Under the pieces are notes generated by a model. That model had not been told where the DNA came from and did no database searches. It was given only the letters and a program-made list of their open reading frames with translations. The position numbers and the translations under genes were made by a program. DNA of 64,000 bases from Variovorax paradoxus NBRC 15149. Lineage in GTDB: Bacteria > Pseudomonadota > Gammaproteobacteria > Burkholderiales > Burkholderiaceae_C. Location of the stretch: contig NZ_BCUT01000001.1 of the NCBI RefSeq assembly GCF_001591365.1, positions 372,001 through 436,000 on the forward strand. The letters run 5' to 3'. Of the stretch, positions 7,847 through 32,251 are shown one piece after another (the first letter of the stretch is position 1; each line of letters starts with the position of its first letter).

Positions 7847-7860
7847 ACACTTAGAACCCC

Positions 7861-7940: not shown

Positions 7941-7941
7941 A

Positions 7942-14875: not shown

Positions 14876-14907
14876 GAACCTTCTCCCAGCGTGAGTGGCA
14901 TCACTGC

Positions 14908-14936
14908 AAATGATCGCTCGTATCATTTAATATTAA
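14908..14936. promoter_or_regulatory. Predicted LysR operator: inverted repeat plus AT-rich palindrome
   Basis: AAATGAT at 14908-14914 and ATCATTT at 14922-14928 form perfect 7-bp arms around a 7-nt spacer. They run directly into the 10-bp palindrome TTAATATTAA (14927-14936). The pair lies in the divergent region between the LysR gene (start 14875) and the first operon gene (start 15012). Size and spacing fit a LysR recognition site overlapping the regulator's own promoter. Confidence 0.6.
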
Positions 14937-15011
14937 TTGACCTGATGCAAGGCGATTTTTAGACTTTCTCCCAGACGGCCACCCTCGTGCCGCTCATGGA
15001 GACAAGTTCAC

Positions 15012-16196
15012 ATGCCCTCTTCGCTCGCGTCGGACGCGCCGTCCGCCACGTCCGGGTCCGCCATCGCCGACATCCAGGCCTGGGCCACGTCGTTCCCCGT
15101 TCCCGCCGCGCACAGCGTGCGACTGGGCGTCGGCCGCACGCTCAAGCGCGACGCCGTGATCGTCAAGGTGACGACCGAGAACGGCCTGGTCGGCTGGGGC
15201 GAATCGCACCACGGCCGCGCGCATTCGAGCATCGCGCACTTCGTCACCCATGCGCTCCGGCCGATGGTGCTCGGCATGGACGCGACCGACGTCAACGGCG
15301 TGTGGCAGCGCATCTATTCGCGCCAGCTGGCGAGCCACGGCATCGGCGCGGGTTGCGCCATTGCCATGAGCGGGATCGACATGGCGCTGTGGGACATCCG
15401 CGGCAAGGCGACGGGGTGGCCGCTGTACAAGCTGCTGGGCGGCGCGTCGAAGCCGATCGCTGCCTACGCCGGCGGCGTGGCGCTGGGCTGGCAGGATCCG
15501 TCGGCGCTGGTCGACGAAGCCTCCGCCCACGTGCAGGCCGGCTACAAGGCGGTGAAGCTGCGGTTGGGCGACACGGTGGAGCGCGACGTGGCGCGCGTGG
15601 CCGCGGTGCGCAAGGCTTTTGGCGAAGGCATCGAGATCCTGACGGACGTGAACGCCGCCTACTCCCTGGCCGATGCGCGGCGCGCCATGCCTCAGCTGGA
15701 CGCGCTGAACGTGGGCTGGCTCGAAGAACCCTTCCCCGCACATGACTACCGCAGCTACGAGCTGGCGCGCGCCTACGGCCGTGTGCCCTTCGCCGCCGGC
15801 GAGAACCACTACACACGCTTCGAGTTCAACCGGCTGGTGGACGACCGCGTGGTGTCGATCCTGCAGCCCGACCTGTCGAAGACCGGCGGCATCACCGAGA
15901 CGATGCGCATCGCGGCCTTGGCCTCGGCGCACAAGCTGCCGATCCATCCGCACTCGTCGATGACAGGCATCAACATGGCCGCGACGCTGCACGTGCTCGC
16001 TGCCATCGAGGGCCATGGCTACTTCGAGGCCGACGTGTCGCGCGGCAACTTGTTCCGTGACGAGCTGGTCGCCACGCCCTTCGCGATCGGCGCCGACGGC
16101 TGCGTGCGTCCCTCCGATGCGCCCGGCATCGGCGTGGAGGTCGATGAAGCCTTCCTCGCTGCGCACCCCGCCATCGAAGGTCCGGCCTACGCCTGA
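15012..16196 (+). CDS. Mandelate racemase/muconate lactonizing-type enolase-superfamily enzyme
   Basis: A 394-residue (alpha/beta)7-beta barrel enzyme that abstracts a proton alpha to a carboxylate. The metal ligands are visible as D212 (ILTDVNAAYS), E238 or E239 (GWLEEPF) and E264 (AAGENHY). The mandelate-racemase-type His/Asp pair is D287 (LQPDLSKTGG) and H314 (IHPHSS). The second-strand catalytic motif, usually Lys-x-Lys, is K182-L-R184 here (YKAVKLRLG), which suggests dehydration or racemisation of a substrate different from mandelate. It is the first gene of the operon, divergent from LysR, and precedes a Bug receptor. The pathway role is inferred: racemase or dehydratase for an alpha-hydroxy acid. 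Confidence 0.85.
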   Translation: MPSSLASDAPSATSGSAIADIQAWATSFPVPAAHSVRLGVGRTLKRDAVIVKVTTENGLVGWGESHHGRAHSSIAHFVTHALRPMVLGMDATDVNGVWQRIYSRQLASHGIGAGCAIAMSGIDMALWDIRGKATGWPLYKLLGGASKPIAAYAGGVALGWQDPSALVDEASAHVQAGYKAVKLRLGDTVERDVARVAAVRKAFGEGIEILTDVNAAYSLADARRAMPQLDALNVGWLEEPFPAHDYRSYELARAYGRVPFAAGENHYTRFEFNRLVDDRVVSILQPDLSKTGGITETMRIAALASAHKLPIHPHSSMTGINMAATLHVLAAIEGHGYFEADVSRGNLFRDELVATPFAIGADGCVRPSDAPGIGVEVDEAFLAAHPAIEGPAYA

Positions 16197-16242
16197 CGTC
16201 TTGCATCCGCTTCGCCGCACAACAACTTCCGGAGACAAACCC

Positions 16243-17235
16243 ATGCAGACATTCCAGCGCCGCCGTGCGCTCCTGGCGGCCGCCGTGGGCGCCGCTCTCG
16301 CGCTCGCCTTCGTTGCCGGTCCGGCACGGGCGCAGGACAGTTACCCCGCCAAGCCGATCCGCATCGTCGTGCCGTACCCTGCGGGCGGCTTCAACGACAC
16401 GCTCGGCCGGCTCGTCGCGAACAAGCTCTCGGCCGCATGGAAGCAGCCCGTGATCGTCGACAACAAGCCGGGTGGCGGCACAGTGATCGGCACGCAGGCC
16501 GCCGCCACCGCACCGGCCGACGGCTACACGCTGCTGGTGGTGCAGTTCCCGTTCGCGGCCAACCCGTGGCTCTACAAGTCGCTGCCCTACGACAGCGCCA
16601 AGGCCTTCGCGCCGGTAGTGCTGGCGGGCCGTTCGCCGATGCTCATCGTGTCGCACGCGGCCGGTCCTCTGCGAACGCTCGGCGACGTGCTCGCGGCGGC
16701 CAAGGCGAAGCCCGGCGCCCTCAATTACGGGTCGTCCGGCTCGGGTTCTTCCAACCATCTGGCGATGGCGCTGTTCGAGAGTGTGTCAGGCACCCGTATG
16801 ACGCAGGTGCCCTACAAGGGCAGTACGCCGCTGCTGACCGATCTGGCGGGCGGGCAGGTCGACCTGGCCGTCGACCTCCTGCCGCACGCGCTTCCCTTCA
16901 TCCAATCCGGCAAGGTGCGTGCGCTGGCGATCGCGAGCACCAAGCGCTCGCCGCTGATGCCCGAGCTGCCCACGGCAGCCGAAGCGGGCGTGCCGGGCTA
17001 TGAAGTGAGCTCCTGGCACGGGTTCGTGGTGCCGGCCGGCACCCCACAGCCGGTGATCGACAAGCTCAACCGCGAGATGAACGCGATCTTCGCGATGGAC
17101 GATGTCAAGAAGGTGTTCGCGCAGCAAGGCGTGGTGCCCGACGGCGGAACGCCCGCGCAGTTCCAGCGCTTCATCGACTCGCAAATGGCACTGTGGAAGA
17201 AGGTCGTGCAAGACGGCCGCATCACAGCCGAATGA
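16243..17235 (+). CDS. Bug-family solute-binding protein (operon copy 1)
   Basis: A 330-residue periplasmic receptor with a clear signal peptide (RRRALLAAAVGAALALAFVAG, then PARAQ at about residues 25-29). The Bug start SYPAKPIRIVVPYPAGGFND is followed by VIVDNKPGGGTVIGTQAAATA. SLPYDSAKAFAPVVLAG and the C-terminal PTAAEAGVPGYEVSSWHGF are also typical. It lies 46 bp after the enolase-superfamily gene. The ligand is unknown but should be a carboxylate fed into this operon. A second Bug gene two positions on shares the aromatic-rich binding loop YPxGGFNDT, so the two may bind related compounds. Confidence 0.9.
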   Translation: MQTFQRRRALLAAAVGAALALAFVAGPARAQDSYPAKPIRIVVPYPAGGFNDTLGRLVANKLSAAWKQPVIVDNKPGGGTVIGTQAAATAPADGYTLLVVQFPFAANPWLYKSLPYDSAKAFAPVVLAGRSPMLIVSHAAGPLRTLGDVLAAAKAKPGALNYGSSGSGSSNHLAMALFESVSGTRMTQVPYKGSTPLLTDLAGGQVDLAVDLLPHALPFIQSGKVRALAIASTKRSPLMPELPTAAEAGVPGYEVSSWHGFVVPAGTPQPVIDKLNREMNAIFAMDDVKKVFAQQGVVPDGGTPAQFQRFIDSQMALWKKVVQDGRITAE

Positions 17236-17257
17236 CGCGCCTACCTCAGCCACACCC

Positions 17258-18712
17258 ATGAACGACCTCCAAGCCAAGAACCTGATCCACGGCGAGTGGC
17301 GGCCCGCGCAATCCGGCGCCTGGGGCACCCGCCACAACCCGGCCGACGGCACCGCGCTGGGCCGCTATGCCGCCTCCAGCCGCGTCGACGGCGATGCCGC
17401 CATCGCATCCGCACGCCGCGCCTTCGACCAGCCCGGCTGGGCACAGAATCCACGCCTGCGCCAGATGGTCATGCTGCGCTGGGCCGACCGCATCGAAGCC
17501 CGCGCGGAAGAGCTCGCTCGCCTGCTTACGTTGGAGAACGGCAAGGTCATTGCGCAGTCGCGCGGCGAAATCGGTGCCGCCGTTTCCGAGATCCGCTACT
17601 ACGCCGGCCTCGCGCGCTATATGCCGGGCCATGTTTTCGAGGTGGAGCCAGGCGCCTTCTCCACGCTGCTGAAGGAGCCCGCCGGGGTGGTCGGCATCAT
17701 CGTGCCGTGGAATGCGCCGGCGGTGCTGCTGATCCGCTCGCTCGCGCCTGCGCTGGCGGCCGGCTGCGCCACGGTCGTCAAGCCGGCGCCGCAGACCGCG
17801 CTGATCACCGCCGCGCTCATCGCCGAACTGCACGCCGCCCCGGGCCTTCCGTCCGGTGTGGTGAACCTGGTGAGCGAAGACGGTCACGAGGTCGCCGCGC
17901 GCCTGGTCGAGTCGGCCGACGTCGACGTCATCAGCTTCACCGGCTCCAACGCGACGGGCCAACGCATCATGGCCGCAGCGGCGCCGACGATGAAGAAGCT
18001 GTCGCTCGAGCTCGGCGGCAAGTCCGCCTGCCTGGTCTTCGACGACGCCGACGTGCAGGCGGTGGCGCCTGCGCTCGCGGCGGCAGCCACCATCATCAGC
18101 GGCCAGCAGTGCACCGCCGCGCGCCGGGTGCTGGTGCACGCGAAGCACTATGACGCGATGAAGCTGGCGCTGACCGCCTCGCTACGGGCGCTGAGCGTCG
18201 CGCCCGGCCTAGCCGAGGGCGCGCACATCGGTCCGATGATCGACGAAGATTCCGCGCGCAGCGTCGGCCAGCGCATCGACGAGGCGATGGCTGCAGCCGA
18301 CGAGGTGCTGCTGCGCGGCAGCCGCGGTGCCGGTGCGCTCGCGCGCGGCGCCTTCCTCACGCCCACCCTGGTCGCGCATCGCGACACCAGCGCCTTTTTC
18401 GTACAGGAAGAGATCTTCGGGCCCCTCCTTGTCGTCGAGCGCTTCGAAGACGAAGCCGAGGCCGTGGCGCGTGCCAACCACTCGGAGTTCGGCCTCTCGG
18501 CCAGCGTGTGGACGCGCGACGGCGCGCGCGCCTTGCGCGTGGCCCGCGCGCTGCGCAACGGCACGGTCTGGATCAATGACCACAACAAGCTTTTCGCCGA
18601 GGCGGAGACCGGCGGCTACCGCCGCAGCGGCCTCGGCCGCCTGCACGGCTACGACGCGCTGATCGACTTCCAGGAGATCAAGCACATCTATCAGCAGGTC
18701 GGCGCGATCTGA
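17258..18712 (+). CDS. NAD(P)-dependent aldehyde dehydrogenase (benzaldehyde-dehydrogenase-like role)
   Basis: A 484-residue cytoplasmic aldehyde dehydrogenase. The active-site residues are N152 (VPWNAPAVL), E251 (LSLELGGKSACL) and nucleophile C285 (SGQQCTAARR); K175 is in VVKPAPQT and the cofactor loop is SFTGSNATGQ (227-236). ATG 17258 directly precedes homology. In this operon it is the natural oxidiser of an aldehyde made by the downstream ThDP-dependent decarboxylase, as benzaldehyde dehydrogenase does in the mandelate pathway or furfural oxidation does in the furan pathway. The substrate is an inference. Confidence 0.88.
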   Translation: MNDLQAKNLIHGEWRPAQSGAWGTRHNPADGTALGRYAASSRVDGDAAIASARRAFDQPGWAQNPRLRQMVMLRWADRIEARAEELARLLTLENGKVIAQSRGEIGAAVSEIRYYAGLARYMPGHVFEVEPGAFSTLLKEPAGVVGIIVPWNAPAVLLIRSLAPALAAGCATVVKPAPQTALITAALIAELHAAPGLPSGVVNLVSEDGHEVAARLVESADVDVISFTGSNATGQRIMAAAAPTMKKLSLELGGKSACLVFDDADVQAVAPALAAAATIISGQQCTAARRVLVHAKHYDAMKLALTASLRALSVAPGLAEGAHIGPMIDEDSARSVGQRIDEAMAAADEVLLRGSRGAGALARGAFLTPTLVAHRDTSAFFVQEEIFGPLLVVERFEDEAEAVARANHSEFGLSASVWTRDGARALRVARALRNGTVWINDHNKLFAEAETGGYRRSGLGRLHGYDALIDFQEIKHIYQQVGAI

Positions 18713-18759
18713 GCGCCGCGACACCTGCGACCGAATCGACATCAAAGAACGGAGACATC

Positions 18760-19737
18760 ATGGACAAGAAGACCTTCCTCCACTGCCTTGCCGCAACCGC
18801 GCTGGCACTCACGCTGCCCGCGGTGCAGGCCCAGCCCGGCAGCTACCCCGACAAGCCGATCCGGATCATCGTGCCGTACACCCCGGGTGGCTTCAACGAC
18901 ACGATGGCGCGCGTGTTCGCGCGCAAGCTGCAGGACGCCTGGGGCCAACCCACGGTGGTCGACAACCGGCCCGGCGCCGGCACCGTGCTTGGCACCGATG
19001 CCGGCGCCAAGGCGGCACCCGACGGCTACACCCTGGTGGTGGCCGGCTTCCCGCTTGTGGTGAACCAGTACATCTATCCCAAGCTGCCCTACGACACGAA
19101 GAAGGACTTCGCGCCGGTCATCCTCGGTGGACAGACACCCAACCTGCTGTTGGTGCGCGCCGAATCGCCCATCAAGTCGATGGCCGACTTGATTGCCAAT
19201 GCGAAGGCGAATCCCGGCAAGCTCAACTACGCCTCGGCCGGCAACGGAACTTCGCTGCACCTTGCGATGGAGTACTTCAAGAGCGTGACCGGCACGGACA
19301 TGAACCAGATTCCGTACAAGGGCAGTGCGCCGATGGTGACCGACCTGCTGGGCGGACAGGTCGACGTGATGTTCGACAACCTGCCCAACGCCCTGCCCCA
19401 CGTGAAGGCCGGCAAGATGCGCGCGCTGGCCGTGACCACGCCGAAGCGCCTGGCGGCCATACCCGACGTGCCCACCGTCGCGGAGCAGGGCTACCCGGGC
19501 TTCGAGGTCGCCGTGTGGTATGGCCTGGCCGCGCCCAAGGGCACGCCCAAGCCGATCCTCGACAAGCTCAACGCAGAACTGCAAAAGGCCCTCAAGTCCG
19601 ACGACGTGAAAGCCATCTTCGCGGCGCAGGGCGTCGAGGTGCTGGGCGGCTCGGTGGCGGACTTCGAGAAGTTCTTCGCCGCGCAGGATGCCAAGTGGGC
19701 GCCCGTGATCCGGAAGGCCGGCATCAAGGCCGAGTGA
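18760..19737 (+). CDS. Bug-family solute-binding protein (operon copy 2)
   Basis: 325 residues with a signal peptide ending ALTLPAVQAQ (about residue 24) and the mature Bug start GSYPDKPIRIIVPYTPGGFN. It also carries TVVDNRPGAGTVLGTDAGAKA, KLPYDTKKDFAPVILGGQTP and PTVAEQGYPGFEVAVWYGLA. It is related to the receptor at 16243, with which it shares the GGFNDT binding loop. Preceded by a good GGAGA ribosome-binding site at 18751. No TctA/TctB transporter genes are in the window, so transport must use partners elsewhere, or the protein serves in sensing. Confidence 0.9.
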   Translation: MDKKTFLHCLAATALALTLPAVQAQPGSYPDKPIRIIVPYTPGGFNDTMARVFARKLQDAWGQPTVVDNRPGAGTVLGTDAGAKAAPDGYTLVVAGFPLVVNQYIYPKLPYDTKKDFAPVILGGQTPNLLLVRAESPIKSMADLIANAKANPGKLNYASAGNGTSLHLAMEYFKSVTGTDMNQIPYKGSAPMVTDLLGGQVDVMFDNLPNALPHVKAGKMRALAVTTPKRLAAIPDVPTVAEQGYPGFEVAVWYGLAAPKGTPKPILDKLNAELQKALKSDDVKAIFAAQGVEVLGGSVADFEKFFAAQDAKWAPVIRKAGIKAE

Positions 19738-19742
19738 ACTTG

Positions 19743-22700
19743 ATGCTGATGAGCGCTCCTCCCTTCGTCGACGCACCCGCGCGGCCCCATGTCGGCCGGC
19801 CGGCCCAGCGCGTCGAAGACCGCGCGCTGCTCACCGGGCGCGGCCGCTATGGCGACGATGCCCCCGTGCGCAGCGACACCTTGCATGCCGCAGTGCTGCG
19901 CTCGCCGCATGCGCACGCCCGGGTGCTGGCGGTGCGCACCGCGCGGGCCGAAGCTATGTCCGGCGTGCGCGCAGTGCTCACGGGCGCCGACGTCCAGCGC
20001 TGGTCCAAGCCTTTCATCGTCGGCGTCAAGCAGCCGATGGAGCTGTGGGCCCTGGCGGTGGACAAGGTGCGCTATGCCGGCGAGCCGATCGCAGTGGTGG
20101 TGGCCGAGAGCCGCTACCTCGCCGAGGACGCGCTTGAGTTGCTGGAGGCCGACTACGAACAGCTGCCCGCCGTCGTCGACATCGAGTCGGCCGCCGCCGA
20201 AGGCGCACCCGTGCTGCACGAGCGCGTAGGCAGCAACGTGGTGAGCGACCGTTCCTTCTGCTACGGCGACCCGGACGCGGCCTTTGCCGCCGCGCCGCAC
20301 CGCGTGGCGCTCAGCGTGCATTACCCGCGCAACTCCTGCACGCCGATCGAAACGGCGGTGGTCATCGCCGAGTTCCTCTCGGAGCAGGACGGCTACGACA
20401 TCCAGTCCAACTTCATGGGCCCGTTCTCGCTGCACACGGTGATGGCGATGGCCCTCAAGGTGCCCGGCAACCGGCTGCGGCATCGCACCTTCGCCGACTC
20501 CGGCGGCAGCTTCGGCGTCAAGCAGGCGGTGATGGCGCCGGCCGTGCTGATGTGCCTGGCTGCGCGCAAGGCCGGCTCGCCGGTGAAATGGGTCGAGGAC
20601 CGGCTCGAGCACCTGACCGCCGCCACCTCGGCCACCGGCCGGCTGTGCCATGCCGAGGCCGCGGTCGAAGCCGACGGCCGCATCACCGCACTGTCGCTCG
20701 ACCAATTCGACGATTGCGGCGGCTACCTGCGCGCGCCCGAGCCGGCCACCTTCTACCGCATGCACGGCTGCCTCACCGGCGCCTACGCCATCGAGCACCT
20801 GCGCGTGCGCAACCGCGTGGTGCTGACCAACAAGACGCCGAGCGGCCTGGTGCGCGGCTTCGGCGGGCCGCAGGTGTACTTCGCGCTCGAACGACTGGTG
20901 CAGCGCATCGCGGTCGAGCTGAGCCTCGATCCGCTCGACGTGTACCGCCGCAACTTCATCGCGAGCGATGCCTTCCCGTACCGCGCAGCAGCCGGCGCGC
21001 TGATCGACTCCGGCGACTACCAGGCGGCACTGGCCATGGCAGTGCGCGACGGCGGCCTGGCCGAACTGCGCCAGCGGCAGGAAACGGCCCGCGCCGAGGG
21101 CCGTCTCTACGGCATCGGCTTCGCGGCCATCGTCGAGCCTTCGGTGTCGAACATGGGCTACATCACGACCGTGATGCCGCGCGAGCAGCGCACCAAGGCC
21201 GGGCCGAAGAACGGCGCCATCGCTGCCGCGACCGTGGGCATCGATCCGCTGGGCGGACTCAGCGTGGTGATCGCCTCGTCGCCGGCCGGCCAGGGCCATC
21301 GCACGGTATGCGCGCAGATCGTGGCCGACGTGTTCGGCGTCGAGCCGTCCGAGGTATCGGTGAACGTCGAGTTCGACACGCAGAAGGATGCCTGGTCGGT
21401 CGCAGCGGGCAATTACTCGAGCCGGTTCGCCGGCGCCGTGGCCGGCACCTTGCACCTCGCGTGCACGCGGCTGCGCGACAAGCTGGCCGGCATTGCCGCG
21501 GCCTCTCTCGATTGCGCGGCAGCGGACGTCGTGTTCGCCTATGGCAAGGTGTACGCCAGGCACGCACCCGAGCGCAGCCTGCCCTTCGCCCGGTTCGCCG
21601 CCAGCCCGCATTGGGCGCCGGGCCTGCTGCCAGCGGGCACCGATCCCGGCCTGCGCGAGACCGCGTTCTGGACGCCGCCGCAACTCACGGCGCCCGACGA
21701 CCAGGACCGCGTCAACACCTCGGCCGCCTATGGCTTCGCCTTCGACATCTGCGCAGTGGAAGTCGACCGCGACACCGGCCGCGTGCGCATCGACCGCTAC
21801 GTCACCACCCACGACGCCGGCACCCTGCTCAATCCGGCGCTGGCCGATGGCCAGATCCGCGGCGCCTTCGCGCAGGGGCTGGGCGCGGCGCTGATGGAGG
21901 AGTTCCGCTACGGCGCCGACGGCAGCTTCCAGTCGGGCACCTTCGCCGACTACCTGGTGCCGACCACCTGCGAGGTGCCCGACCCCGTGATCCTGCACCT
22001 GGAAACGCCCAGCCCCTTCACGCCGCTGGGCGCCAAGGGCCTCGGCGAAGGCAACAACATGAGCACGCCGCCGTGCATCGCCAACGCGGTGGCCGACGCG
22101 CTGGGGCGCGCCGATATCGTGCTACCGCTCACGCCCTCGCGCGTGATGCACCTGCTGGGCATGGATGACCCGCCGCCCTCCGCAGGCAGCGCCGCCGCAG
22201 CCATGCCGGCCTCGGAACCCCCTGCGAACCCGAAAGGAGGCAAGGGCAAGGCCCTGTCGGCGCGGGGCGAGATCCTGCTGCCCGCCACACCCGAGGCGGT
22301 GTTCGCAGTGCTGCTCGACCCGGTCGCGCTGGCCCGCGTCATCCCCGGCTGCAATGCGCTGGAGTCGGTCGGGCCCAACCGCCATCGCGCCGACGTGACG
22401 GTCGGTGTCGGCATGATCAAGGCACGCTACGCGGCAGAGATCGCGCTCAGCGAAATCGAGGCGCCTCGGCGCCTGCGGCTCGCCGGCTCGGGCCTGTCGA
22501 GTGTGGGCGCGGCCAAGGGCAGCGGCCTGGTAACGCTGGAACCGAAAGACGGCGGCACCCTGCTGCGCTACGACTACGAGGCCGAGGTCTCGGGCAAGGT
22601 CGCGGCGGTCGGCGGGCGCATGCTCGAAGGCGCGGCCAAGATCGTGCTCAAGCAGCTGTTCGAGCAGCTCGGCCGGCAGGCCGGCGGCCAGGGGGCAGCG

Positions 22701-23584: not shown

Positions 23585-24108
23585 AACAGATCGGCCGCGA
23601 CAGCCTGCACACGGTGCGGCTGCAACTCAACGGCACCGCGCGCAGCGCGCCCTGCACGCCGCGCATGCTGCTGTCGGACTTCCTGCGCGAGGGCCTGGGC
23701 GCCACCGGGACGCATGTGGGCTGCGAGCACGGCGTGTGCGGCGCCTGCACGGTTCAGATCGATGGCGTCGCCAGCCGCGCGTGCATGACGCTCGCGGTGC
23801 AGGCCGAAGGCCGCCACATTGCCACCGTCGAAGGCTTGTGCGATGCCGACGGTCCGCTGTCGGACCTGCAGGAGGCCTTCAAGCGCCACCACGCGCTGCA
23901 GTGCGGCTTCTGCACCGCCGGCATCCTGATGTCCTGCGACGACTACCTGCGCCGCCGCCCCGACCCCAGTGAGGCCGAGGTGCGCGACATGCTCTCCGGC
24001 CACCTCTGCCGCTGCACCGGCTACACGCCCATCGTCCAGGCGGTGCTCGATACCGCCGCCCTGCGCCGCATCGCCGTCGCCTCCCAACCCCTCCCAATGG
24101 ACAACTGA
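23581..24108 (+). CDS. Molybdenum hydroxylase [2Fe-2S] small subunit
   Basis: A 175-residue CoxS-type protein with two iron-sulfur clusters. The plant-ferredoxin-type cluster ligands are in [16 protein letters not shown] and RACMTL; the alpha-helical domain cluster is bound by [11 protein letters not shown] and CRCTGY. GTG 23581 overlaps the preceding TGA in a GTGA junction. It relays electrons between the molybdenum centre and FAD. The gene order large-medium-small and the next gene (CoA ligase) match the furoyl-CoA dehydrogenase arrangement. Confidence 0.95.
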
Positions 24109-24109
24109 C

Positions 24110-25690
24110 ATGCTCGACCTCGCAACCACATTCCTTCAAAGCGTCGAGCGCAGTCCCCACGCGCTCGCGCTGGTGGACGACGGCGTGCGCTTGACCTATG
24201 CGCAATGGCAAGACCAGGTGGCGCGCGCCGCCGCCGGCCTGCGCAGGCTCGGCCTGGCGCGCGGCGACCGGCTGCTCTCGGTGCTGCAGAACCGGCACGA
24301 GGCGGCCACGCTGCATTGGGCCTGCCAGTTCGCCGGCGTGGTGATCGTGCCGCTCAACTGGCGCGCCAAGCCGGAGGAGATCGACTACTGCCTGTCCGAC
24401 GCAGGCGCCAAGGCCCTCGTCTTCGAGGCCGCGAGCGAAGCGGCCACGCAGTACAGCACCGGCGCGCGCGCCGTGCCGCGCATCGGCGTGGGCGCGCTGG
24501 AAGGCGGCGACGCGACGCTCAGCTGGGCCGAACTGCTCCAAGGCGAGGCCGCCATGCTGGAATTCGCCGCCGAGGCCGACGACGTCTCGCTGATGCTCTA
24601 CACCTCCGGCACCACCGGCAAGCCCAAGGGCGTGCCGAGGCGCCATCGCCAGGAGCGCGCCGCCGCGCTGGCGCACGTGGCACAGAACCTCTACCGCCGC
24701 GGCGAACGCACGCTCGGCGTGATGCCGCTCTACCACACGATGGGCGTGCGCTCCCTGCTGGCGATGGCGCTGGTCGATGGCACCTTCGTCTGCCTGCCGC
24801 GCTTCGACACGCATGCCGCGCTGGCGCTGATCGCGCGCGAGCGCATCACCTGCCTGTACCTCGTGCCAACGCTTTACCACGACATGCTGACGCAACGCCA
24901 GCGCGCCGGCGCCGGCGACGGACCGGGTGAGGACATCGCGTCGGTCACCAAGCTGGGCTTCGCCGGTGCGCCCATGCATGACGCGCTGCTGCAGCGCCTG
25001 ACGCGTGCCTTCCGGCCCGAGCTCTTCGTCAACCACTACGGCTCGTCGGAGATCTACACCGTCTCGATCGACCAGGACGCGGTGAAAAAGCCCGGCAGCG
25101 CCGGCCGCGCCGGGCTCAATACGCGGCTGCGTATCGTGCGGCTCGACGCGACCGGCGCGGACGACCGCGTCGGCCCCAACCAGGAAGGCGAGATCATCGC
25201 GGACCTGCGCGGCGACGAGGCCTTCGAAGGCTACTGGAACCGGCCCGATGCCAACGCCCGCGCGCTGCGCAACGGCTGGTATCACACCGGAGACATCGGC
25301 TACTTCGACGACGACGGCGACCTCTACGTCACCGGCCGCGTCGACGACATGATCATCAGCGGCGGCGAGAACATCTCGCCGGTCGACATCGAATCGGTCA
25401 TCTCGCTGTGCCCCGGCGTCGGCGAAGTCGCGGTGGCCGGCCTCTCGGACGAGCGCTGGGGCCAACGCGTGGTGGCCTTCGTGACCCGCAGCGGCGAAGA
25501 GCCCGGGCTCGATGCGCAGACGCTCGACGCCCACTGCCGCAACTCCGACCTGCCCAACTTCAAGCGGCCGCGCGAATACGTCTTCGTTGCGGAGATCCCG
25601 AAGTCGCCGGTCGGAAAGATCCTGCGGCGCAAGCTCGTCGCCGGCGAATACGAAGCGCTCGGCAGCCATCCCGATACCCCGGCGGCCTGA
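24110..25690 (+). CDS. AMP-forming acyl-CoA ligase (2-furoyl-CoA-synthetase-like role)
   Basis: A 526-residue ANL-superfamily enzyme activating a carboxylic acid to its CoA thioester in two steps via an acyl-AMP. The P-loop is LMLYTSGTTGKPKGVPR (about 162-178); NHYGSSEIYTV is the A5 motif, GWYHTGDIGYFDDDGDLYV and GRVDDMIISGGENI are the hinge region, and the C-terminal catalytic Lys is in KSPVGKILRRKL. It starts one base after the small-subunit stop. It probably makes the CoA ester that the molybdenum hydroxylase acts on. Confidence 0.93.
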   Translation: MLDLATTFLQSVERSPHALALVDDGVRLTYAQWQDQVARAAAGLRRLGLARGDRLLSVLQNRHEAATLHWACQFAGVVIVPLNWRAKPEEIDYCLSDAGAKALVFEAASEAATQYSTGARAVPRIGVGALEGGDATLSWAELLQGEAAMLEFAAEADDVSLMLYTSGTTGKPKGVPRRHRQERAAALAHVAQNLYRRGERTLGVMPLYHTMGVRSLLAMALVDGTFVCLPRFDTHAALALIARERITCLYLVPTLYHDMLTQRQRAGAGDGPGEDIASVTKLGFAGAPMHDALLQRLTRAFRPELFVNHYGSSEIYTVSIDQDAVKKPGSAGRAGLNTRLRIVRLDATGADDRVGPNQEGEIIADLRGDEAFEGYWNRPDANARALRNGWYHTGDIGYFDDDGDLYVTGRVDDMIISGGENISPVDIESVISLCPGVGEVAVAGLSDERWGQRVVAFVTRSGEEPGLDAQTLDAHCRNSDLPNFKRPREYVFVAEIPKSPVGKILRRKLVAGEYEALGSHPDTPAA

Positions 25691-25734
25691 GAGCCGCCGC
25701 CTCGCCACACCTTTCCCCAGGCCGGAGAATATCC

Positions 25735-27198
25735 ATGACCACCTCCACGACGTCGACCTCCCCGGGCGCGCCCTTCACCGATCTGCGCCGCTGGCTCGCC
25801 CACCTGAGCAACAGCGGCCGCGTCGCGGTCATGCGCGAGGACACGCCGCTGCAGCACACGCTGGCCGCGATCGCCAAGCGCCTCGACGGCCGGCAGGCCG
25901 CCTACTTCCCCAAGCCGGGCGGACACGCGGTGCCGGTGGTGTCCGGCTTCATGTCGCGCCGCGCCTGGATCGCCGAGGCCATGGGCGTGCCGGAGTCGGA
26001 GCTGCTGCAGCGCTTCCGCGATGCGGCAGAGCGTCCGCTGCGCTGGCAGGAAGTGGCCAAGGGCGAGGCCGCCTGCCAGCAGGTGGTGCACCGCGACCGC
26101 GACGTGCGCGAGGTGCTGCCGGTGCCCACGCACAGCGAGCACGACAATGGCCCCTACATCACGGCCGGCCTCGTGATCGCCCGCAACCCAGCGACTGGCG
26201 TGCAGAACGTTTCGATCAACCGCATCCAGGTGCACGCCCCGGATCGCATGGCCATCCTGATGCTGCCGCGCCACCTGTGGGCCTTCTACAAGACGGCCGA
26301 AGCGCGCAACGAGGCGTTGGAAGTCGCGGTCGTGATCGGCATCGACCCGCTCACGTTGCTGGCCTCGCAAGCCATTGCGCCGATCGACTGCGACGAACTG
26401 GAGATTGCGGGCGCACTGCACGGCGCGCCGCTGCGCGTGACGAAGTGCCTGACGAACGAGGTGCGGATGCCGGCCGACAGCGAGATCGTGATCGAGGGCC
26501 GCATCCTGCCGGGCGTGAAGGAGCCCGAAGGCCCGTTCGGCGAATTCCCCAAGTACTACAGCGCGCGCGAGCACCGCGAGGTGATCCAGGTCGATGCCAT
26601 CACGCACCGGCGCGAGCCGATCTACCACACCATCGTGCCGGCCGAGATGGAGCACCTGCTGCTCGGATCGATCCCGCGCGAGGCCACGCTGCTGGCGCAC
26701 CTGCAGCGCAGCTTTCCGAACGTGCTGGACGTGCACCTGGCCATCGGCGGCGTCGGCCGCTACCACCTCTACGTCAAGATCAAGAAGACGCACGAAGGCC
26801 AGCCGAAGAACGTGATCTGCGCCGCCTTCGGCGCCCACTACGACATCAAGCAGGTGATCGTGGTCGACGACGACGTGCAGGTGCACGAGCCGCAGCAGGT
26901 CGAGTGGGCGGTGGCCACGCGCTTCCAGGCCGACCGCGATCTGGTCGTGATCCAGGGCGCGCAGGGCTCGGTGCTCGACCCCTCGACCACCATCGGCCAG
27001 GAATTCGGCGACGGCGTCGCACCGCCGCCGCACCTGCAGGGCCTGAGCGCCAAGATGGGCCTGGACGCCACCAGGCCGGTGGCTTACCACGAGCATGTCT
27101 TCACCAAGGTGCGCGTGCCGGGCGAGGACGAGATCGACCTCGCGGCGGTGATCGACACGGCCGCGCGCGTGGACTTCGCCGTCGGAGCCATGCGATGA
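25735..27198 (+). CDS. UbiD-family prenylated-FMN decarboxylase
   Basis: A 487-residue reversible (de)carboxylase of unsaturated or aromatic acids that needs prenylated FMN. The metal/cofactor motif NVSINRIQV includes N162 and R163. The catalytic Arg-Glu-Glu set can be read as R163, E265 and E270 (KEPEGPFGEFPKYY), the spacing known from fungal Fdc1. The length matches AroY- and HmfF-type enzymes. The flavin prenyltransferase follows with a 4-bp ATGA overlap. In furan degraders HmfF removes CO2 from 2,5-furandicarboxylate; a comparable role on a heteroaromatic or phenolic diacid is inferred here. Confidence 0.93.
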   Translation: MTTSTTSTSPGAPFTDLRRWLAHLSNSGRVAVMREDTPLQHTLAAIAKRLDGRQAAYFPKPGGHAVPVVSGFMSRRAWIAEAMGVPESELLQRFRDAAERPLRWQEVAKGEAACQQVVHRDRDVREVLPVPTHSEHDNGPYITAGLVIARNPATGVQNVSINRIQVHAPDRMAILMLPRHLWAFYKTAEARNEALEVAVVIGIDPLTLLASQAIAPIDCDELEIAGALHGAPLRVTKCLTNEVRMPADSEIVIEGRILPGVKEPEGPFGEFPKYYSAREHREVIQVDAITHRREPIYHTIVPAEMEHLLLGSIPREATLLAHLQRSFPNVLDVHLAIGGVGRYHLYVKIKKTHEGQPKNVICAAFGAHYDIKQVIVVDDDVQVHEPQQVEWAVATRFQADRDLVVIQGAQGSVLDPSTTIGQEFGDGVAPPPHLQGLSAKMGLDATRPVAYHEHVFTKVRVPGEDEIDLAAVIDTAARVDFAVGAMR

Positions 27199-27791
27199 GC
27201 ACGAAGAAGCGCCTCATCGTCGCCATCACCGGCGCGAGCGGCACCATCTACGGCGTGCGCCTGCTGCAGCTGCTGCGCGCCATGCCCGATTGGGAGACGC
27301 ACCTGGTGATGTCGGCCTCCGGGGCGCTCACCGCCTCGCAGGAGATCGACATGAAGCGCGCCGACATCGAGGCTCTGGCCGATGTCGTGCACAACGTCAA
27401 GGATATCGGTGCGGCCGTCTCCAGCGGTTCATTCCGCACGGCCGGCATGGTGATCGCGCCCTGTTCGATGAAGACGCTGGCCAGCGTGGCGCACGGGCTG
27501 GCCGACAACCTGATCAGCCGCGCCGCCGATGTGATCCTGAAGGAGCGTCGTCGGCTGGTTCTGATGGCGCGCGAGACGCCCTTCAACCTCGCGCACCTGC
27601 GCAACATGACGGCCGTCACCGAGATGGGCGGCATCGTGTTTCCGCCGGTGCCCGCCTTCTATGCGCGGCCGAGTTCCCTCGAAGCCATGGTCGACCACAC
27701 GGTCGGCCGCGTGCTCGACCTGTTCGACATCGAGCACCACGATCTCGTGCGCCGCTGGGAAGGGCTGCAACGCCCGAGCTTCGGCGCCTGA
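27195..27791 (+). CDS. UbiX-family flavin prenyltransferase
   Basis: A 198-residue enzyme that attaches dimethylallyl to FMN, making the cofactor of UbiD enzymes. The N-terminal phosphate-binding loop is AITGASGTIYGVRLLQLL, then MSASGALT; SSGSFRTAGMVIAPCSMKTL and the Arg-rich stretch ILKERRRLVLMARETPFNLAHLRN (about 117-140; its first part binds the prenyl phosphate) are typical. Its ATG overlaps the TGA of the UbiD gene, so it is a dedicated partner and not the housekeeping ubiquinone copy. Confidence 0.95.
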   Translation: MSTKKRLIVAITGASGTIYGVRLLQLLRAMPDWETHLVMSASGALTASQEIDMKRADIEALADVVHNVKDIGAAVSSGSFRTAGMVIAPCSMKTLASVAHGLADNLISRAADVILKERRRLVLMARETPFNLAHLRNMTAVTEMGGIVFPPVPAFYARPSSLEAMVDHTVGRVLDLFDIEHHDLVRRWEGLQRPSFGA

Positions 27792-27826
27792 ACCATCCGT
27801 TTCCATTTCTTTAACCAAGGACAACC

Positions 27827-28633
27827 ATGCCTCAACTCGCCCACTCCGCCCAGACCCTGCTCGAGAAGCTCGATGGCTTTCGCGTCGAGATCGATCCGAA
27901 CCGCGAACGCGCCGACATCGTGCTGCAGCGCCCGCCCTACAACATCATCTCGATGGCCCAGCGCGACCAGCTGCGCCTGGTGTTCGAATCGCTCGACGAG
28001 AACCCCGATGTGCGCGTGGTCGTGCTGCGCGCGGAGGGGGAGCACTTCTCCAGCGGCGGCGACATCAAGGGCTTTCTCGAAGCTTCACCCGAGCACGTGT
28101 CGAAGCTCGCCTGGAACATTGCGGCGCCGGCGCGCTGCAGCAAGCCGGTGGTCGCCGCCAACCGCGGCTATTGCTTCGGCGTGGGCTTTGAGATTTCGCT
28201 GGCGTGCGACTTCCGCATCGCCACCGAAACCAGCCTCTACGCCCTGCCCGAGCAGAAACTGGGCCAGATTCCCGGCTCGGGCGGCTCCGCCCGGCTGCAG
28301 AAGATGGTCGGCATCACCCGCACCAAGGACATCGTGATGCGCTCGCGCCGCATTCCCGGCAAGCAGGCCTGCGAATGGGGCGTGGCCACCGAGTGCGTGC
28401 CCGACGCGGAGCTCGAAGCCGCGACCGACCGCCTGGTCGACGAGCTGCGCGCCTTCTCGCCGATCGCGCAGCGCACCGCCAAGAAACTGCTCAACGACAC
28501 GGAGGATTCGACCCTTGCGGTGGCCATCGAGCTGGAGGGCCATTGCTACAGCCGCTTGCGCAGCTCCGACGATTTCCGCGAAGGCGTCGAAGCCTTCCAC
28601 GCGAAGCGCAGCCCGAGCTTCACGGGCCGCTGA
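27827..28633 (+). CDS. Crotonase-fold enzyme (possible 2-oxoglutaryl-CoA hydrolase, HmfE-like)
   Basis: A 268-residue enoyl-CoA hydratase/isomerase-family protein. The oxyanion-hole segments are EHFSSGGDIKGFLE (about 66-79) and NRGYCFGVGFEISLACDFRI (about 110-129). The usual hydratase Glu pair is replaced around LPEQKLGQIPGSGG, where E and Q residues lie. A crotonase-family hydrolase ends the furoyl-CoA pathway by releasing 2-oxoglutarate, and the position next to ligase, hydroxylase and UbiD/X genes matches that role. A plain hydratase cannot be excluded. Confidence 0.85.
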   Translation: MPQLAHSAQTLLEKLDGFRVEIDPNRERADIVLQRPPYNIISMAQRDQLRLVFESLDENPDVRVVVLRAEGEHFSSGGDIKGFLEASPEHVSKLAWNIAAPARCSKPVVAANRGYCFGVGFEISLACDFRIATETSLYALPEQKLGQIPGSGGSARLQKMVGITRTKDIVMRSRRIPGKQACEWGVATECVPDAELEAATDRLVDELRAFSPIAQRTAKKLLNDTEDSTLAVAIELEGHCYSRLRSSDDFREGVEAFHAKRSPSFTGR

Positions 28634-28640
28634 GCAGCGG

Positions 28641-29858
28641 ATGCGGACCGAACGCGTCCTCTCGATCGACGACCTGGCCGAGGCCGCTCGGCGCCGCCTG
28701 CCGCCGAGCATCCATGGCTATGTCAGCGGCGGCTCCGAGGACCACGTCTCGCTCGAGGCCAACCGCGCCGCCTTCCGGCGCTGGCGCTTTCTCACGCGGC
28801 CGCTGGTCGACGTCTCGAAACGCTCGCAGGCCATCGATCTGTTCGGCGCGGCGTACGCTTCGCCCGTCGGCATCGCGCCAATGGGCGTCTCGGGCCTGTG
28901 CTGCTTCGATGGCGACGTGGCGCTGGCGCGCGCCGCGGCGAAGGCCGGCGTGCCGTCGGTGCTCAGCGCTGCGTCGACCGTGCCGCTGGAGCTCGTGATG
29001 CGCGAGGCACCGGGCACCTGGTATCAGGCTTATCTGCCCGCGCAGCACGCGGTGATCGATCCGCTGCTCGAGCGATTGAAGGCCGCAGGCGTGGGCGTGC
29101 TGGTGATCACCGTCGATGTGCAGATCGCGTCGGTGCGCGAGAACGAGCTGCGCAACGGCTTCAGCATTCCGTTGCGCTTCACGCCAAGGCTGATGGCCGG
29201 CGGCCTGATGCGTCCGCGATGGATGGTCGAGACCTTCGCGCGCACGCTGTGGAAGCAAGGCATTCCGCGCTTCGAGAACTTCACCGCGACGCGGGGCGGC
29301 CGGATCATCACCGCCGCCAAGGGCGACCATCGCGCGGGCCGCGCCGCCATGACCTGGGACGAGCTCGCGCGCATCCGCGAGCGGTGGCCGGGCCGGCTGC
29401 TGGTCAAGGGCCTGCTGCGGCCCGAGGACGCGCGCGCCGCGCAGCGCATCGGAGCCGACGGCATCTTCGTGTCGAATCACGGAGGCCGCCAGCTCGACGG
29501 CGCGGTCGCACCGCTCGACGTGCTTCCGGCCATGGTTGCCGCAGCGCCGCAGCTGACGGTGCTGCTCGACGGCGGTGTGCGCCGCGGCACCGACGTGCTC
29601 AAGGCGCTGGCGCTGGGCGCCCGCGCCGTCTTCGTCGGCCGGCCCGCGATGTACGGCCTCGCGGCCGGCGGCGAGGCCGGCGCTACGCATGCGCTGGCGC
29701 TGCTGCGGCGCGAGATCGACACCGACCTGGCCCTGCTCGGCTGTGCCGACGTGCGGCAGCTCGGCCCCGACTGGCTGGTGCGCGACGACCGGCTTCCGCT
29801 GCAGGATGGCGAGCGCACGGCTTTCATCCACCCTGCCCCATCCCTGAAGGCATCATGA
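28641..29858 (+). CDS. FMN-dependent alpha-hydroxyacid dehydrogenase/oxidase (mandelate/lactate dehydrogenase family)
   Basis: A 405-residue TIM-barrel flavoprotein oxidising an L-2-hydroxy acid to a 2-oxo acid. Active-site residues correspond to the glycolate oxidase set: Y27 (SIHGYVSGG), Y128 (TWYQAYL), D159 (ITVDVQI), K256 (LLVKGLL), H280 and R283 (VSNHGGRQLDG). The phosphate-binding segment is DGGVRRGTDVLKALALGARAVFVGRP (about 317-342). An insertion of about 25 residues with Trp/Arg/Met (FTPRLMAGGLMRPRWMVE) resembles the membrane-facing segment of (S)-mandelate and L-lactate dehydrogenases. With the ThDP enzyme and aldehyde dehydrogenase it completes a mandelate-like route. Confidence 0.9.
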   Translation: MRTERVLSIDDLAEAARRRLPPSIHGYVSGGSEDHVSLEANRAAFRRWRFLTRPLVDVSKRSQAIDLFGAAYASPVGIAPMGVSGLCCFDGDVALARAAAKAGVPSVLSAASTVPLELVMREAPGTWYQAYLPAQHAVIDPLLERLKAAGVGVLVITVDVQIASVRENELRNGFSIPLRFTPRLMAGGLMRPRWMVETFARTLWKQGIPRFENFTATRGGRIITAAKGDHRAGRAAMTWDELARIRERWPGRLLVKGLLRPEDARAAQRIGADGIFVSNHGGRQLDGAVAPLDVLPAMVAAAPQLTVLLDGGVRRGTDVLKALALGARAVFVGRPAMYGLAAGGEAGATHALALLRREIDTDLALLGCADVRQLGPDWLVRDDRLPLQDGERTAFIHPAPSLKAS

Positions 29859-31525
29859 CAACACCCTTACTTGCTGAACGCACCGGCGGCCAGGTCCTGG
29901 TCGATGCGCTGCGCATCCACGGCATCGATACCGCCTACTGCGTGCCGGGCGAAAGCTTCCTGGCCGTGATCGATGCGCTGTACCACGCACGCGACGCCAT
30001 TCGCCTCATCGTCTGCCGACAGGAAGGTGGCGCGGCCCACATGGCCGAAGCACATGGCAAGCTCACCGGCGAGCCGGGCATCTGCTTCGTCACGCGCGGG
30101 CCAGGCTCGACCAATGCGAGCATTGCCGTTCACACGGCGCGGCAGGATTCGACGCCGCTGATCCTCTTCATCGGCCAGGTCGGCCGCGATGCAATGGGCC
30201 GAGAAGCCTGGCAGGAGATCGACTACCGCCACATGTTCGGCCACATCGCCAAATGGGTCGAACAGGTCGACGATGCACGGCGCCTGCCCGAATTCATCAG
30301 CCGCGCGTTCCACGTCGCAACGTCGGGCCGGCCCGGGCCGGTGGTCCTGGCGCTGCCCGAGGACATGCTGACCGATCTCGTGTCCGTGCCCGACGCGCCG
30401 CGCTACCGCCGCAGCGCTTCGGCCCCGACCAGGGAGGCCATGGACGATCTGGCCGCTGAGCTGCAGCGCGCCGAACGGCCGCTGCTGGTGCTGGGCGGCG
30501 GCGGGTGGACGCGCGAGGCCAGTGCCGACATCACTGCCTTCGCAGCGAACTTCGACCTGCCGGTCGCCTGCGCCTTCCGCCGTCAGGACCTGATCGACAA
30601 CCATGACGACCATTACATCGGCGAGGCCGGCCTGGGCATGGACCCACGCATCGCTCAGCGCATGCGCGACGCCGATCTGGTCATCGCGGTCGGTGCACGC
30701 CTGGGCGAAACCACGACACAGGGTTACTCGTTGCTCGACGTGCCGCTTCCGGCGCAGCGGCTGGTGCATGTGCATCCCGACCCGGAGGAACTCGGGCATG
30801 TCTACCATGCCGAGGTGCCGGTGAATGCCTCGATGCCGGCGTTCGCGCGTGCCGCGCGGGCGCTGAAGCCGATGGCTTCAGCGCGTTGGAATGCCTGGAC
30901 CCGCGCCGCACGCGCCGACCAGCTCGACCACATCCAGCCGCCCGCAACGATGCCCGGCGACGTCGATCTGGGCCAGGTCATGGTCCACTTGCGCGAGACG
31001 CTGCCGCCCGACACCATCGTCAGCAACGGTGCGGGCAACTACACGCTGTGGGTGCAGCGCTTCTGGCGCTACCGCGGGATGCGCACGCAGCTCGCACCCA
31101 CCAGCGGCACCATGGGCTATGGCCTGCCCGCGGCCATCGCGGCAAAGCTGGTGCACCCGGAGCGCACGGCCCTGTGCTTCGCAGGCGACGGCTGCTTCCT
31201 GATGAACGGGCAGGAACTCGCGACGGCCGTGCAGTATCGATTGAACGTGATCGTCATCGTCGTCAATAACGGCATGTACGGGAGCATCCGCATGCATCAG
31301 GAGAGGCACTACCCTGGCAATGTATGGGGCACGGCGCTGGGCAATCCCGACTTCGCCATGCTGGCGCGCTCCTATGGTGCGCATGGCGAGACTGTCAGGC
31401 ACACGAGCGAGTTTCCCGCGGCGCTCGAACGCGCCCGCGTAGCCGGCACGCCGGCGCTGATCGAACTGCACGTAAGCCCGGAGGCACTGTCCCCGAAACT
31501 GACCGTGTCCATGTTGCGAAAGTAG
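29855..31525 (+). CDS. Thiamine-diphosphate-dependent 2-oxoacid decarboxylase/acetolactate-synthase-like enzyme
   Basis: 556 residues with the three ThDP-enzyme domains. The PYR domain has the activating E57 (VCRQEGGAAHMAEAHG). The central domain contains RPLLVLGGGGW. The PP domain has AGDGCFLMNGQELATA and ends the GDG-(about 26)-NN motif with VIVVNNGMYGS. Overlap ATGA with the preceding oxidase gene indicates coupling. It is closer in style to acetolactate synthase-like proteins than to the well-known benzoylformate decarboxylase, but a 2-oxoacid made by the preceding oxidase is the obvious substrate. The product would be the aldehyde for the dehydrogenase at 17258. Confidence 0.88.
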   Translation: MTTPLLAERTGGQVLVDALRIHGIDTAYCVPGESFLAVIDALYHARDAIRLIVCRQEGGAAHMAEAHGKLTGEPGICFVTRGPGSTNASIAVHTARQDSTPLILFIGQVGRDAMGREAWQEIDYRHMFGHIAKWVEQVDDARRLPEFISRAFHVATSGRPGPVVLALPEDMLTDLVSVPDAPRYRRSASAPTREAMDDLAAELQRAERPLLVLGGGGWTREASADITAFAANFDLPVACAFRRQDLIDNHDDHYIGEAGLGMDPRIAQRMRDADLVIAVGARLGETTTQGYSLLDVPLPAQRLVHVHPDPEELGHVYHAEVPVNASMPAFARAARALKPMASARWNAWTRAARADQLDHIQPPATMPGDVDLGQVMVHLRETLPPDTIVSNGAGNYTLWVQRFWRYRGMRTQLAPTSGTMGYGLPAAIAAKLVHPERTALCFAGDGCFLMNGQELATAVQYRLNVIVIVVNNGMYGSIRMHQERHYPGNVWGTALGNPDFAMLARSYGAHGETVRHTSEFPAALERARVAGTPALIELHVSPEALSPKLTVSMLRK

Positions 31526-32199: not shown

Positions 32200-32251
32200 A
32201 GGACGACTGAGAAATGTCGTTCCTGTTATCTATCTCCACTGGAGTCCTCCA

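Follow-up and report, generated by a model that had tools for sequence, protein, structure and literature searches.

What route could be served by an operon that packs a set of genes for furan breakdown between enzymes recalling mandelate degradation? The question is raised by Variovorax paradoxus NBRC 15149 (assembly GCF_001591365.1; genome size 6.66 Mb), in a stretch of 64,000 nucleotides from contig NZ_BCUT01000001.1, positions 372,001 to 436,000, which we call the window and number from its first letter. Here 13 open reading frames are packed on the + strand at 15012-31525, with intergenic gaps of -4 to +47 bp, and together with a divergent gene for a LysR-type regulator (13973-14926, - strand) they form one tight operon. 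In order, they encode an enolase-superfamily enzyme (ENO), a solute receptor (BUG1), an aldehyde dehydrogenase (ALDH), a second receptor (BUG2), the HmfA-type, flavin adenine dinucleotide (FAD) and 2Fe-2S subunits of a molybdenum hydroxylase, a ligase, UbiD, UbiX, a crotonase, a flavin mononucleotide (FMN) dehydrogenase and a thiamine diphosphate (ThDP) enzyme. This gene list and layout had been given by the earlier note on this DNA, and the open frames and their families agree with it; family searches back all 13 names, the hydroxylase being of the three-subunit xanthine-dehydrogenase type. We put a probability of about 0.6 on the reading that the operon serves a single catabolic route for an alpha-hydroxy acid bearing a furan ring.

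The middle genes supply the furan part of this reading. They comprise the HmfA-type large subunit, with a CoxG domain fused C-terminally (19743-22757), the HmfB-type FAD subunit (22754-23584), the HmfC-type 2Fe-2S subunit (23581-24108), an HmfD-type acyl-CoA ligase, or 2-furoyl-CoA synthetase (24110-25690), an HmfF-type UbiD decarboxylase, predicted to act on 2,5-furandicarboxylic acid (FDCA; 25735-27198), an HmfG-type UbiX flavin prenyltransferase (27195-27791) and an HmfE-type crotonase-fold enzyme, the presumed 2-oxoglutaryl-CoA hydrolase (27827-28633). Excerpts of PMC6678421 and PMC12064950 give these core roles the names HmfABC, D, E, F, G and H. Identity to the hydroxylase subunits, ligase and crotonase of eight plasmid loci (L002-L006 and L159-L161) is 53-84%, the core reaching 67-81% against the Cupriavidus/Burkholderia plasmid loci L002, L003, L004 and L006 and 53-84% against the alphaproteobacterial loci. 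By tblastn the large subunit matched 65 plasmid records at E<=1e-100 (best about 73% across 98% of the length) and the ligase 64 at E<=1e-60 (best 71%); the CoxG domain, residues 842-979 of the large subunit, is covered by the match in 24 of 25 listed plasmid records. Around the annotated hmf loci L002-L006 the neighbors are the large subunit, the FAD and 2Fe-2S subunits, an AMP-binding ligase and an enoyl-CoA hydratase. L002 and L004 additionally have UbiD, UbiX and a glucose-methanol-choline (GMC) oxidoreductase, L006 has UbiD and UbiX without the oxidoreductase, and L003 and L005 lack UbiD and UbiX. The order hydroxylase-ligase-crotonase is common to the plasmid loci; in the window UbiD and UbiX stand between ligase and crotonase. 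By family and by order, counterparts of HmfABC, HmfD and HmfE are all present.

The UbiD gene adds a residue-level marker. Among solved structures it matches 6H6V and 6H6X at E values of 1e-126 and 1e-125, against 7e-58 for the next kind of UbiD, and 6H6V we take to be HmfF itself. According to excerpts of PMC7976604, HmfF decarboxylates FDCA, and H297 is key to its furan specificity. We take the aligned histidine of the window UbiD, at chain position 296 by our own count, to correspond to H297. This histidine and an arginine eight residues further on are kept in all 17 distinct HmfF-type genes compared, the window gene included, and the motif was not found in the matched stretches of five distinct other UbiD genes. 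The window thus holds an HmfF-type UbiD with the furan-specificity histidine, accompanied by UbiX. Identity, gene order and this UbiD together mark the middle genes as an hmf-type (furan) core, just as the earlier note had proposed.

Is the joining of this core to the outer genes peculiar to one genome? The neighborhood search that the earlier note had suggested, run here from relatives of ENO, found all 13 genes in identical order in Paracandidimonas soli (NZ_SMBX01000004.1), at 59-84% identity and with a divergent LysR gene at 58%. Because the same set recurs there in the same order, the set in the window is not a chance assembly. A Polynucleobacter metagenome-assembled genome (NZ_MHZG01000011.1) has the genes in two adjacent blocks at one locus, the first running from the HmfA-type subunit to the crotonase, with an ABC transporter and BUG1, and the second consisting of a LysR gene divergent from ENO-ALDH-BUG2-FMN-ThDP-UbiD-UbiX.

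A more distant version is found in Azospirillum. In Azospirillum sp. B510 (NC_013855.1) the crotonase, ligase, hydroxylase subunits and UbiD lie on one strand, followed after UbiD by a sodium:solute symporter, an FMN dehydrogenase (40% identical to that of the window) and a ThDP enzyme (27%), with UbiX, LysR and ALDH divergent. In A. oryzae a UbiD-FMN-ThDP-UbiX-LysR-ALDH block is on plasmid NZ_CP054621.1 (L167), and the hydroxylase, ligase and crotonase genes are on another plasmid, NZ_CP054618.1 (L005). The Azospirillum ThDP enzymes are 26-27% identical to that of the window, and the B510 enzyme belongs to NCBIfam PRK08327 (751 bits against a cut-off of 456). As the window ThDP enzyme falls in PRK08199, there are two distantly related versions of an FMN and ThDP gene pair placed next to HmfF, HmfG and ALDH. 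The Azospirillum stretches showed no ENO-like gene, and around relatives of their ThDP enzyme in Roseomonas and Geminicoccaceae no UbiD or hmf set is annotated within 12 kb. The symporter-like gene of B510 (L161, 9349-10752), between UbiD and the FMN gene, is a possible carrier for the hydroxy acid. On a plasmid of Sagittula stellata (L157), near aromatic-acid genes, an FMN relative at 55% is separated by no more than about 8 kb from an ALDH gene and from a ThDP gene that is 38% identical to the Azospirillum ThDP; this is perhaps another mandelate-like branch.

The outer genes form a separate upper module, made of ENO, the FMN dehydrogenase, the ThDP enzyme, ALDH and BUG2, which we call the shell. 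The FMN alpha-hydroxyacid dehydrogenase (28641-29858) has as its best solved match the (S)-mandelate dehydrogenase 6BFG (E 2e-89). Residues Y27, Y131, D159, R166, K256, H280 and R283, which presumably have roles in binding the alpha-hydroxy carboxylate, are conserved across the three hybrid loci, so that by match and by residues the enzyme is predicted to be of the (S)-mandelate-dehydrogenase type known from the mdl pathway. The ThDP enzyme (29855-31525), our proposed 2-oxoacid (furylglyoxylate) decarboxylase, scores 881 bits against a cut-off of 539 in PRK08199, a model named only 'thiamine pyrophosphate protein'. Benzoylformate decarboxylase, the label that the earlier note had matched to it, has no model among the 25 best NCBIfam models, and in the structural comparison acetolactate synthase (3e-69) comes ahead of a probable benzoylformate decarboxylase (4e-41). 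Since the subfamily is common, this enzyme marks the route only in context. The best non-hybrid match within the family (G389, 60-61%) has no shell or core gene nearby except a ligase-like match at 28-32%. Rhizobium and Pararhizobium relatives (L089 and L090; 60%) lie beside hydantoinase, aminotransferase and oxidoreductase genes, a setting that would also suit a 2-oxoacid decarboxylase.

The link between the shell and furans is probably ALDH (17258-18712). In its tree the nearest sequences to the three hybrids, 73-75% identical to that of the window, come from G016, G093, G185 and G195, whose loci hold an HmfF-type UbiD and a short-chain dehydrogenase/reductase (SDR) gene; in the 30 kb fetched for G016 there are UbiD-side genes only, and the hydroxylase core was not seen. 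The wider clade consists of furan loci from Bosea, Azospirillum, Dinoroseobacter, Cupriavidus, Burkholderia and G310, and two rows, Sagittula and G264, fall outside it. This tree is biased, because most of its loci were fetched for their hmf genes. A plain plasmid search with ALDH gave six records at E<=1e-140, of which the four opened are furan loci and the remaining two are further D. shibae records with the same coordinates. We regard ALDH as a probable 5-formyl-2-furoate dehydrogenase; excerpts of PMC12064950 describe PsfA of strain GO16 as oxidizing 5-formyl-2-furoate. The label of benzaldehyde dehydrogenase is unsupported, ALDH grouping with the ALDHs of hmf loci in a comparison that was made without mdlD.

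In known furan pathways the aldehyde is supplied by HmfH or PsfG, and neither type of gene turned up in the window, the other hybrid loci or the Azospirillum stretches compared. The best matches in the host's own genome were 39% over half the length for the HmfH type and 48% for the SDR of the G016 furan locus, which we took as PsfG-like. A sterol-desaturase-family gene recurs in furan loci with a GMC oxidase or an SDR (L002, L004, L135, L137, L140, L141, L144, L145 and L160) and was not seen in the hybrid loci.

ENO (15012-16196) belongs to the mandelate racemase/muconate lactonizing (MR/MLE) group. The acidic motifs are intact and so are both dyad residues, Asp and His, and the protein has K-x-R where mandelate racemase has K-x-K. 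Across the 76 rows compared, the eight commonest forms of the site (66 of the 76) are every one K-x-R. The two-base arrangement that marks a racemase, Lys-x-Lys with His-Asp, is therefore incomplete, and the best solved match is 3BJS, which we take to be an enolase without assigned function; the label of mandelate racemase is one of role, without support from family. The best NCBIfam models are sugar-acid dehydratases, all scoring far below their cut-offs, and on plasmids of Shinella and Polaromonas relatives of ENO have genes for sugar transport and sugar acids nearby. Of the two TctC/Bug receptors, BUG1 (16243-17235) has counterparts at 63-73% in L002, L006, L136, L137, L141 and L144 and at 46% in L139. 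BUG2 (18760-19737) reaches 59-67% only in the two other hybrid loci, with at most 54% in the other loci compared. The divergent LysR protein is 36-68% identical to those of other hmf loci compared.

From these parts the following route can be drawn. The Bug receptors would bind the hydroxy acid, and ENO would most likely act on it first, either by interconverting its enantiomers or by forming it from a more hydroxylated acid. The FMN enzyme would oxidize the alpha-hydroxy acid to a 2-oxo acid, which the ThDP enzyme would decarboxylate to a furan aldehyde. ALDH would then convert 5-formyl-2-furoate to FDCA if the ring is 5-carboxylated, or furfural to 2-furoate if it is not. HmfF, using prenylated FMN (prFMN) from HmfG, would take the 5-carboxyl off FDCA, HmfD would make 2-furoyl-CoA, HmfABC would hydroxylate it and HmfE would lead to 2-oxoglutarate. 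Because the FMN and ThDP pair would supply a furan aldehyde from a hydroxy acid, it would replace the alcohol-oxidizing step of HmfH or PsfG. A ring with a 5-carboxyl group is favored because HmfF and HmfG adjoin the FMN, ThDP and ALDH genes where the modules lie apart; this placement points to a 5-carboxylated furan intermediate, which was absent from the earlier note. A helper step such as racemization would agree with the lack of any ENO seen in the Azospirillum stretches. The substrate is most likely 2-(5-carboxy-2-furyl)glycolate, an identification that we offer tentatively; plain 2-furylglycolate is our second choice, and a rather doubtful one. With less than even confidence, we propose a new pathway in which furylglycolates, possibly 5-carboxylated, are racemized, oxidized, decarboxylated, oxidized to FDCA and led via HmfF to 2-oxoglutarate, and which would have been assembled at least twice, with PRK08199 in the Betaproteobacteria and with PRK08327 in Azospirillum. 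The series from hydroxy acid through oxo acid and aldehyde to acid, put forward in the earlier note, thus survives as an order of roles, and its three names from the mandelate pathway are analogies that the protein families do not support. In the parts of the open-licence literature covered we found neither such a hydroxyacid branch nor a furoic-acid operon with a mandelate racemase; the hmf survey of Donoso et al. 2021 lay outside that scope and may show such loci.

Several points weigh against this reading. The route is read from genes alone, at three hybrid loci (window, P. soli and Polynucleobacter) and two Azospirillum loci, and three is a small number of hybrids. A natural supply of the 5-carboxy compound was not found in the literature examined, and on unsubstituted 2-furylglycolate HmfF would be left without a step. 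The K-x-R of ENO is unlike mandelate racemase, and its relatives outside the hybrids are in other settings, some of them sugar-acid-like. At the position of Y27 in the window enzyme, the FMN enzymes of Azospirillum have F, as does the Sagittula relative. The nearest solved relatives of the ThDP enzyme are acetolactate synthases, and its sequence cannot by itself separate a decarboxylase from a carboligase. The ThDP subfamily is found in 154 of 399 genomes of the family at E<=1e-180, and no furan locus surrounds its best non-hybrid match or the Rhizobium relatives opened. Of the trees discussed below, all but that of ENO are quick ones, those of the core cover only ligase, UbiD and crotonase, the Polynucleobacter ligase is a long branch, and the crotonase tree needs three changes in its best form, with starred branches forcing only one.

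How else might the operon be explained? The shell could take plain 2-furylglycolate (or 2-furylglyoxylate) to furfural and 2-furoate, with HmfF and HmfG forming a parallel FDCA route in the same operon. Such mixed loci do exist, L002 and L004 carrying HmfF/G and a GMC oxidase beside furoate genes, and the compound itself is on record: excerpts of PMC7910265 cite its chemo-enzymatic synthesis from glucose via cortalcerone, and those of PMC3813511 and PMC6730488 list the acid among exudates from the roots of tobacco seedlings treated with Bacillus and, under the name 2-furanglycolic acid, for cultures of Lactobacillus plantarum. Against this, UbiD and UbiX adjoin FMN, ThDP and ALDH, not hmfABCDE, in Polynucleobacter and A. 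oryzae, suggesting action in series, and we consider this explanation doubtful. That the pathway starts from a carbohydrate acid, with ENO as a sugar-acid dehydratase that turns, say, a C7 aldaric or 3-deoxyulosonic acid into the precursor of the furan, is in keeping with the K-x-R motif, with the dehydratase models, though far below their cut-offs, and with one ENO relative beside sugar-transport genes. The further dehydrations needed to reach a furan would have no enzyme in the operon, and ENO has no counterpart in the Azospirillum stretches, so this origin seems unlikely.

The same plasmid neighborhoods of ENO in Shinella and Polaromonas, with the acetolactate synthases nearest to the ThDP enzyme, could instead be taken to mean that the shell is an unrelated hydroxy- or sugar-acid route, co-transcribed because both substrates occur together. 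This we find a little more unlikely again, as ALDH groups with the ALDHs of furan loci, shell and HmfF/G form one block in Polynucleobacter, and a distant FMN and ThDP pair recurs with HmfF, HmfG and ALDH in Azospirillum. It is highly improbable, finally, that the FMN enzyme oxidizes 5-hydroxymethyl-2-furoate in place of HmfH or PsfG, with ENO and the ThDP enzyme doing something else: the residues that presumably bind an alpha-hydroxy carboxylate are conserved in it, and the ThDP gene adjoining the FMN gene in both versions would go unexplained. In favor of this explanation are the lack of any close HmfH- or PsfG-type gene and a statement, cited in excerpts of PMC12064950, that genomes of organisms using 5-hydroxymethylfurfural (HMF) have HmfH or PsfG and never both.

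If the operon does serve one furan hydroxy acid route, were its two parts inherited together? In the ENO tree (76 rows) the three hybrids form a clade with support of 100/100, and they also group in the FMN (97), ThDP (98) and ALDH (86, not starred) trees, these being quick trees of 18, 36 and 16 rows with Shimodaira-Hasegawa-like approximate likelihood ratio (SH-aLRT) support. In the ligase tree the hybrid label must change at least twice if the starred branches are kept, and the UbiD tree also needs at least two changes. The window ligase is nearest to those of G318 and G264 (support 100), at whose loci the shell was not seen, and this tie alone parts the window from P. soli. Since the shell proteins of the three hybrids group and the core ligase does not, shell and core appear to have different histories and to recombine, and since they stand in two blocks in Polynucleobacter and on different plasmids in A. 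oryzae, they are separable modules. The window core is 81-94% identical to that of G264/G318, against 67-84% to the P. soli hybrid. That the shell was recently and simply inserted into an operon of the G264 type was considered and set aside: the window core is nearer to G264/G318, yet P. soli has the window's gene order. Loss of the shell from G264/G318, or replacement of the core, would each fit. On the short G318 contig, which is cut on the left, there was no FMN match at E<=1e-70, and the best ThDP match was 54%.

The earlier note had allowed that an operon boundary between the halves would count against joining them. None is apparent in the window or in P. soli, and the halves do lie apart in Polynucleobacter, at one locus, and in A. 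oryzae, on two plasmids. Two operons are unsupported in the window or P. soli, given the gaps of -4 to 47 bp (window) and the interleaved order. Terminator-like sites numbered seven, against 8.2 expected in shuffles, and none is at an inner gene junction; two are on the + strand, at 28154 inside the crotonase gene and at 32201 beyond the operon. The sole promoter-like site, at 14937-14965 upstream of ENO, is no evidence alone, 1.0 being expected.

The hybrids are rare in the genomes searched. They account for two of the 80 best ENO loci kept from a scan with at least 589 relatives, a lower bound because only these 80 were retained and many are on short contigs. An HmfF-type UbiD (E<=1e-170) is present in eight of the 399 family genomes, and the shell in none of the other seven opened. 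The FMN gene was found at E<=1e-125 in one of 369 genomes of the class, its own, and at E<=1e-120 in four of 101 genomes of the genus; the other three relatives, at 53-54%, have only a distant Bug receptor gene (38-39%) from among the operon's genes within about 1.5 kb. Rows were excluded from the trees below 45% identity or 80% coverage, or when the match contained a stop, for ENO, and below 30% (FMN), 50% (ThDP) or 45% (ALDH) identity, each with less than 75% coverage also excluded; the FMN row L212 holds a stop. Duplicates from overlapping loci were dropped or counted once, and the ThDP duplicate L100/L132 stayed in its tree.

Among known systems, the hmf genes of Cupriavidus basilensis HMF14 (hmfABCDE and hmfFGH) and the plasmid clusters share with the window the equivalents of hmfABC, D, E, F and G, a LysR gene, a Bug receptor and the order hydroxylase-ligase-crotonase. 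The window lacks their HmfH-type GMC oxidase and has the enolase, FMN dehydrogenase and ThDP enzyme instead; the likeness to HMF14 rests on gene order, family and published text. The mandelate pathway of Pseudomonas putida is encoded by mdlABCD. It follows the same order of chemistry, with an enolase-family enzyme, an FMN hydroxyacid dehydrogenase, a ThDP enzyme and an aldehyde dehydrogenase, whereas in the window ENO and the ThDP enzyme have their closest relatives in other groups, ALDH falls with those of furan loci and the product would be a furan acid, not benzoate. The Azospirillum sp. B510 and A. oryzae modules share HmfF, HmfG, ALDH, the FMN hydroxyacid dehydrogenase and a ThDP enzyme with the window, at only 40% (FMN) and 26-27% (ThDP, in PRK08327), and have a symporter gene; no enolase was seen there. 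Pseudomonas umsongensis GO16, likened here by its description in excerpts of PMC12064950 (PsfG alcohol dehydrogenase, PsfA aldehyde dehydrogenase and HmfF), has the same lower pathway and a PsfA role feeding HmfF that our ALDH resembles; the window has no close PsfG-type SDR, and decarboxylation of an oxo acid would provide its aldehyde.

Beyond the ThDP gene by 31 bp lies a gene for a DUF2390/TIGR02444 protein (31557-32105, + strand), which is probably the last member of the operon and is near UbiX in relatives. DUF2390 occurs in 14 of the 399 family genomes, with one match each, within about 4 kb of UbiX in 13 and within 1.5 kb in nine; in the exception, G057, the contig ends 0.9 kb away and the 7 kb on the other side hold no UbiX. 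It is found also beside UbiD genes only 27-32% identical to that of the window. Three of the 14 genomes are among the eight with HmfF-type UbiD (P = 0.0017), and of eight plasmid records searched two alphaproteobacterial plasmids have the gene, adjoining UbiX in both. Among the 22 remaining class genomes with DUF2390, a single one has UbiX within 1.5 kb, so the link is lineage-bound. From the loci compared (window, L135, L137, L159, L160 and L179-L188) we suggest, as a guess, a candidate UbiD/UbiX accessory protein, acting in prFMN supply or UbiD activation.

Upstream, a phage-integrase-family gene (7942-9162) is divergent from a dihydrouridine synthase (dus) gene (6845-7936). An integrase beside dus is a known kind of island insertion site, and the operon may be island cargo. 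G+C content is 67-72% at 16-32 kb, falls to 60-65% on both sides (8-16 and 32-46 kb) and is 63-69% beyond. A search of the rest of the window, on either strand, for exact repeats of 14-25 bases of 7701-8000 gave none, and no island ends were found.

The lower pathway in this operon is of the known hmf type; what is probably new is a hydroxyacid entry branch replacing HmfH or PsfG. If it is real, the NCBIfam groups PRK08199 and PRK08327, which carry generic names, and the 3BJS-type enolases would gain candidate functions, the first for any of their members, and the enzymes may be useful for making or degrading FDCA, a bioplastic monomer. On this reading bacteria would have, besides HmfH and PsfG, a third entry to furan catabolism, from which one would expect nature to hold a class of furan hydroxy acids that serve them as food.

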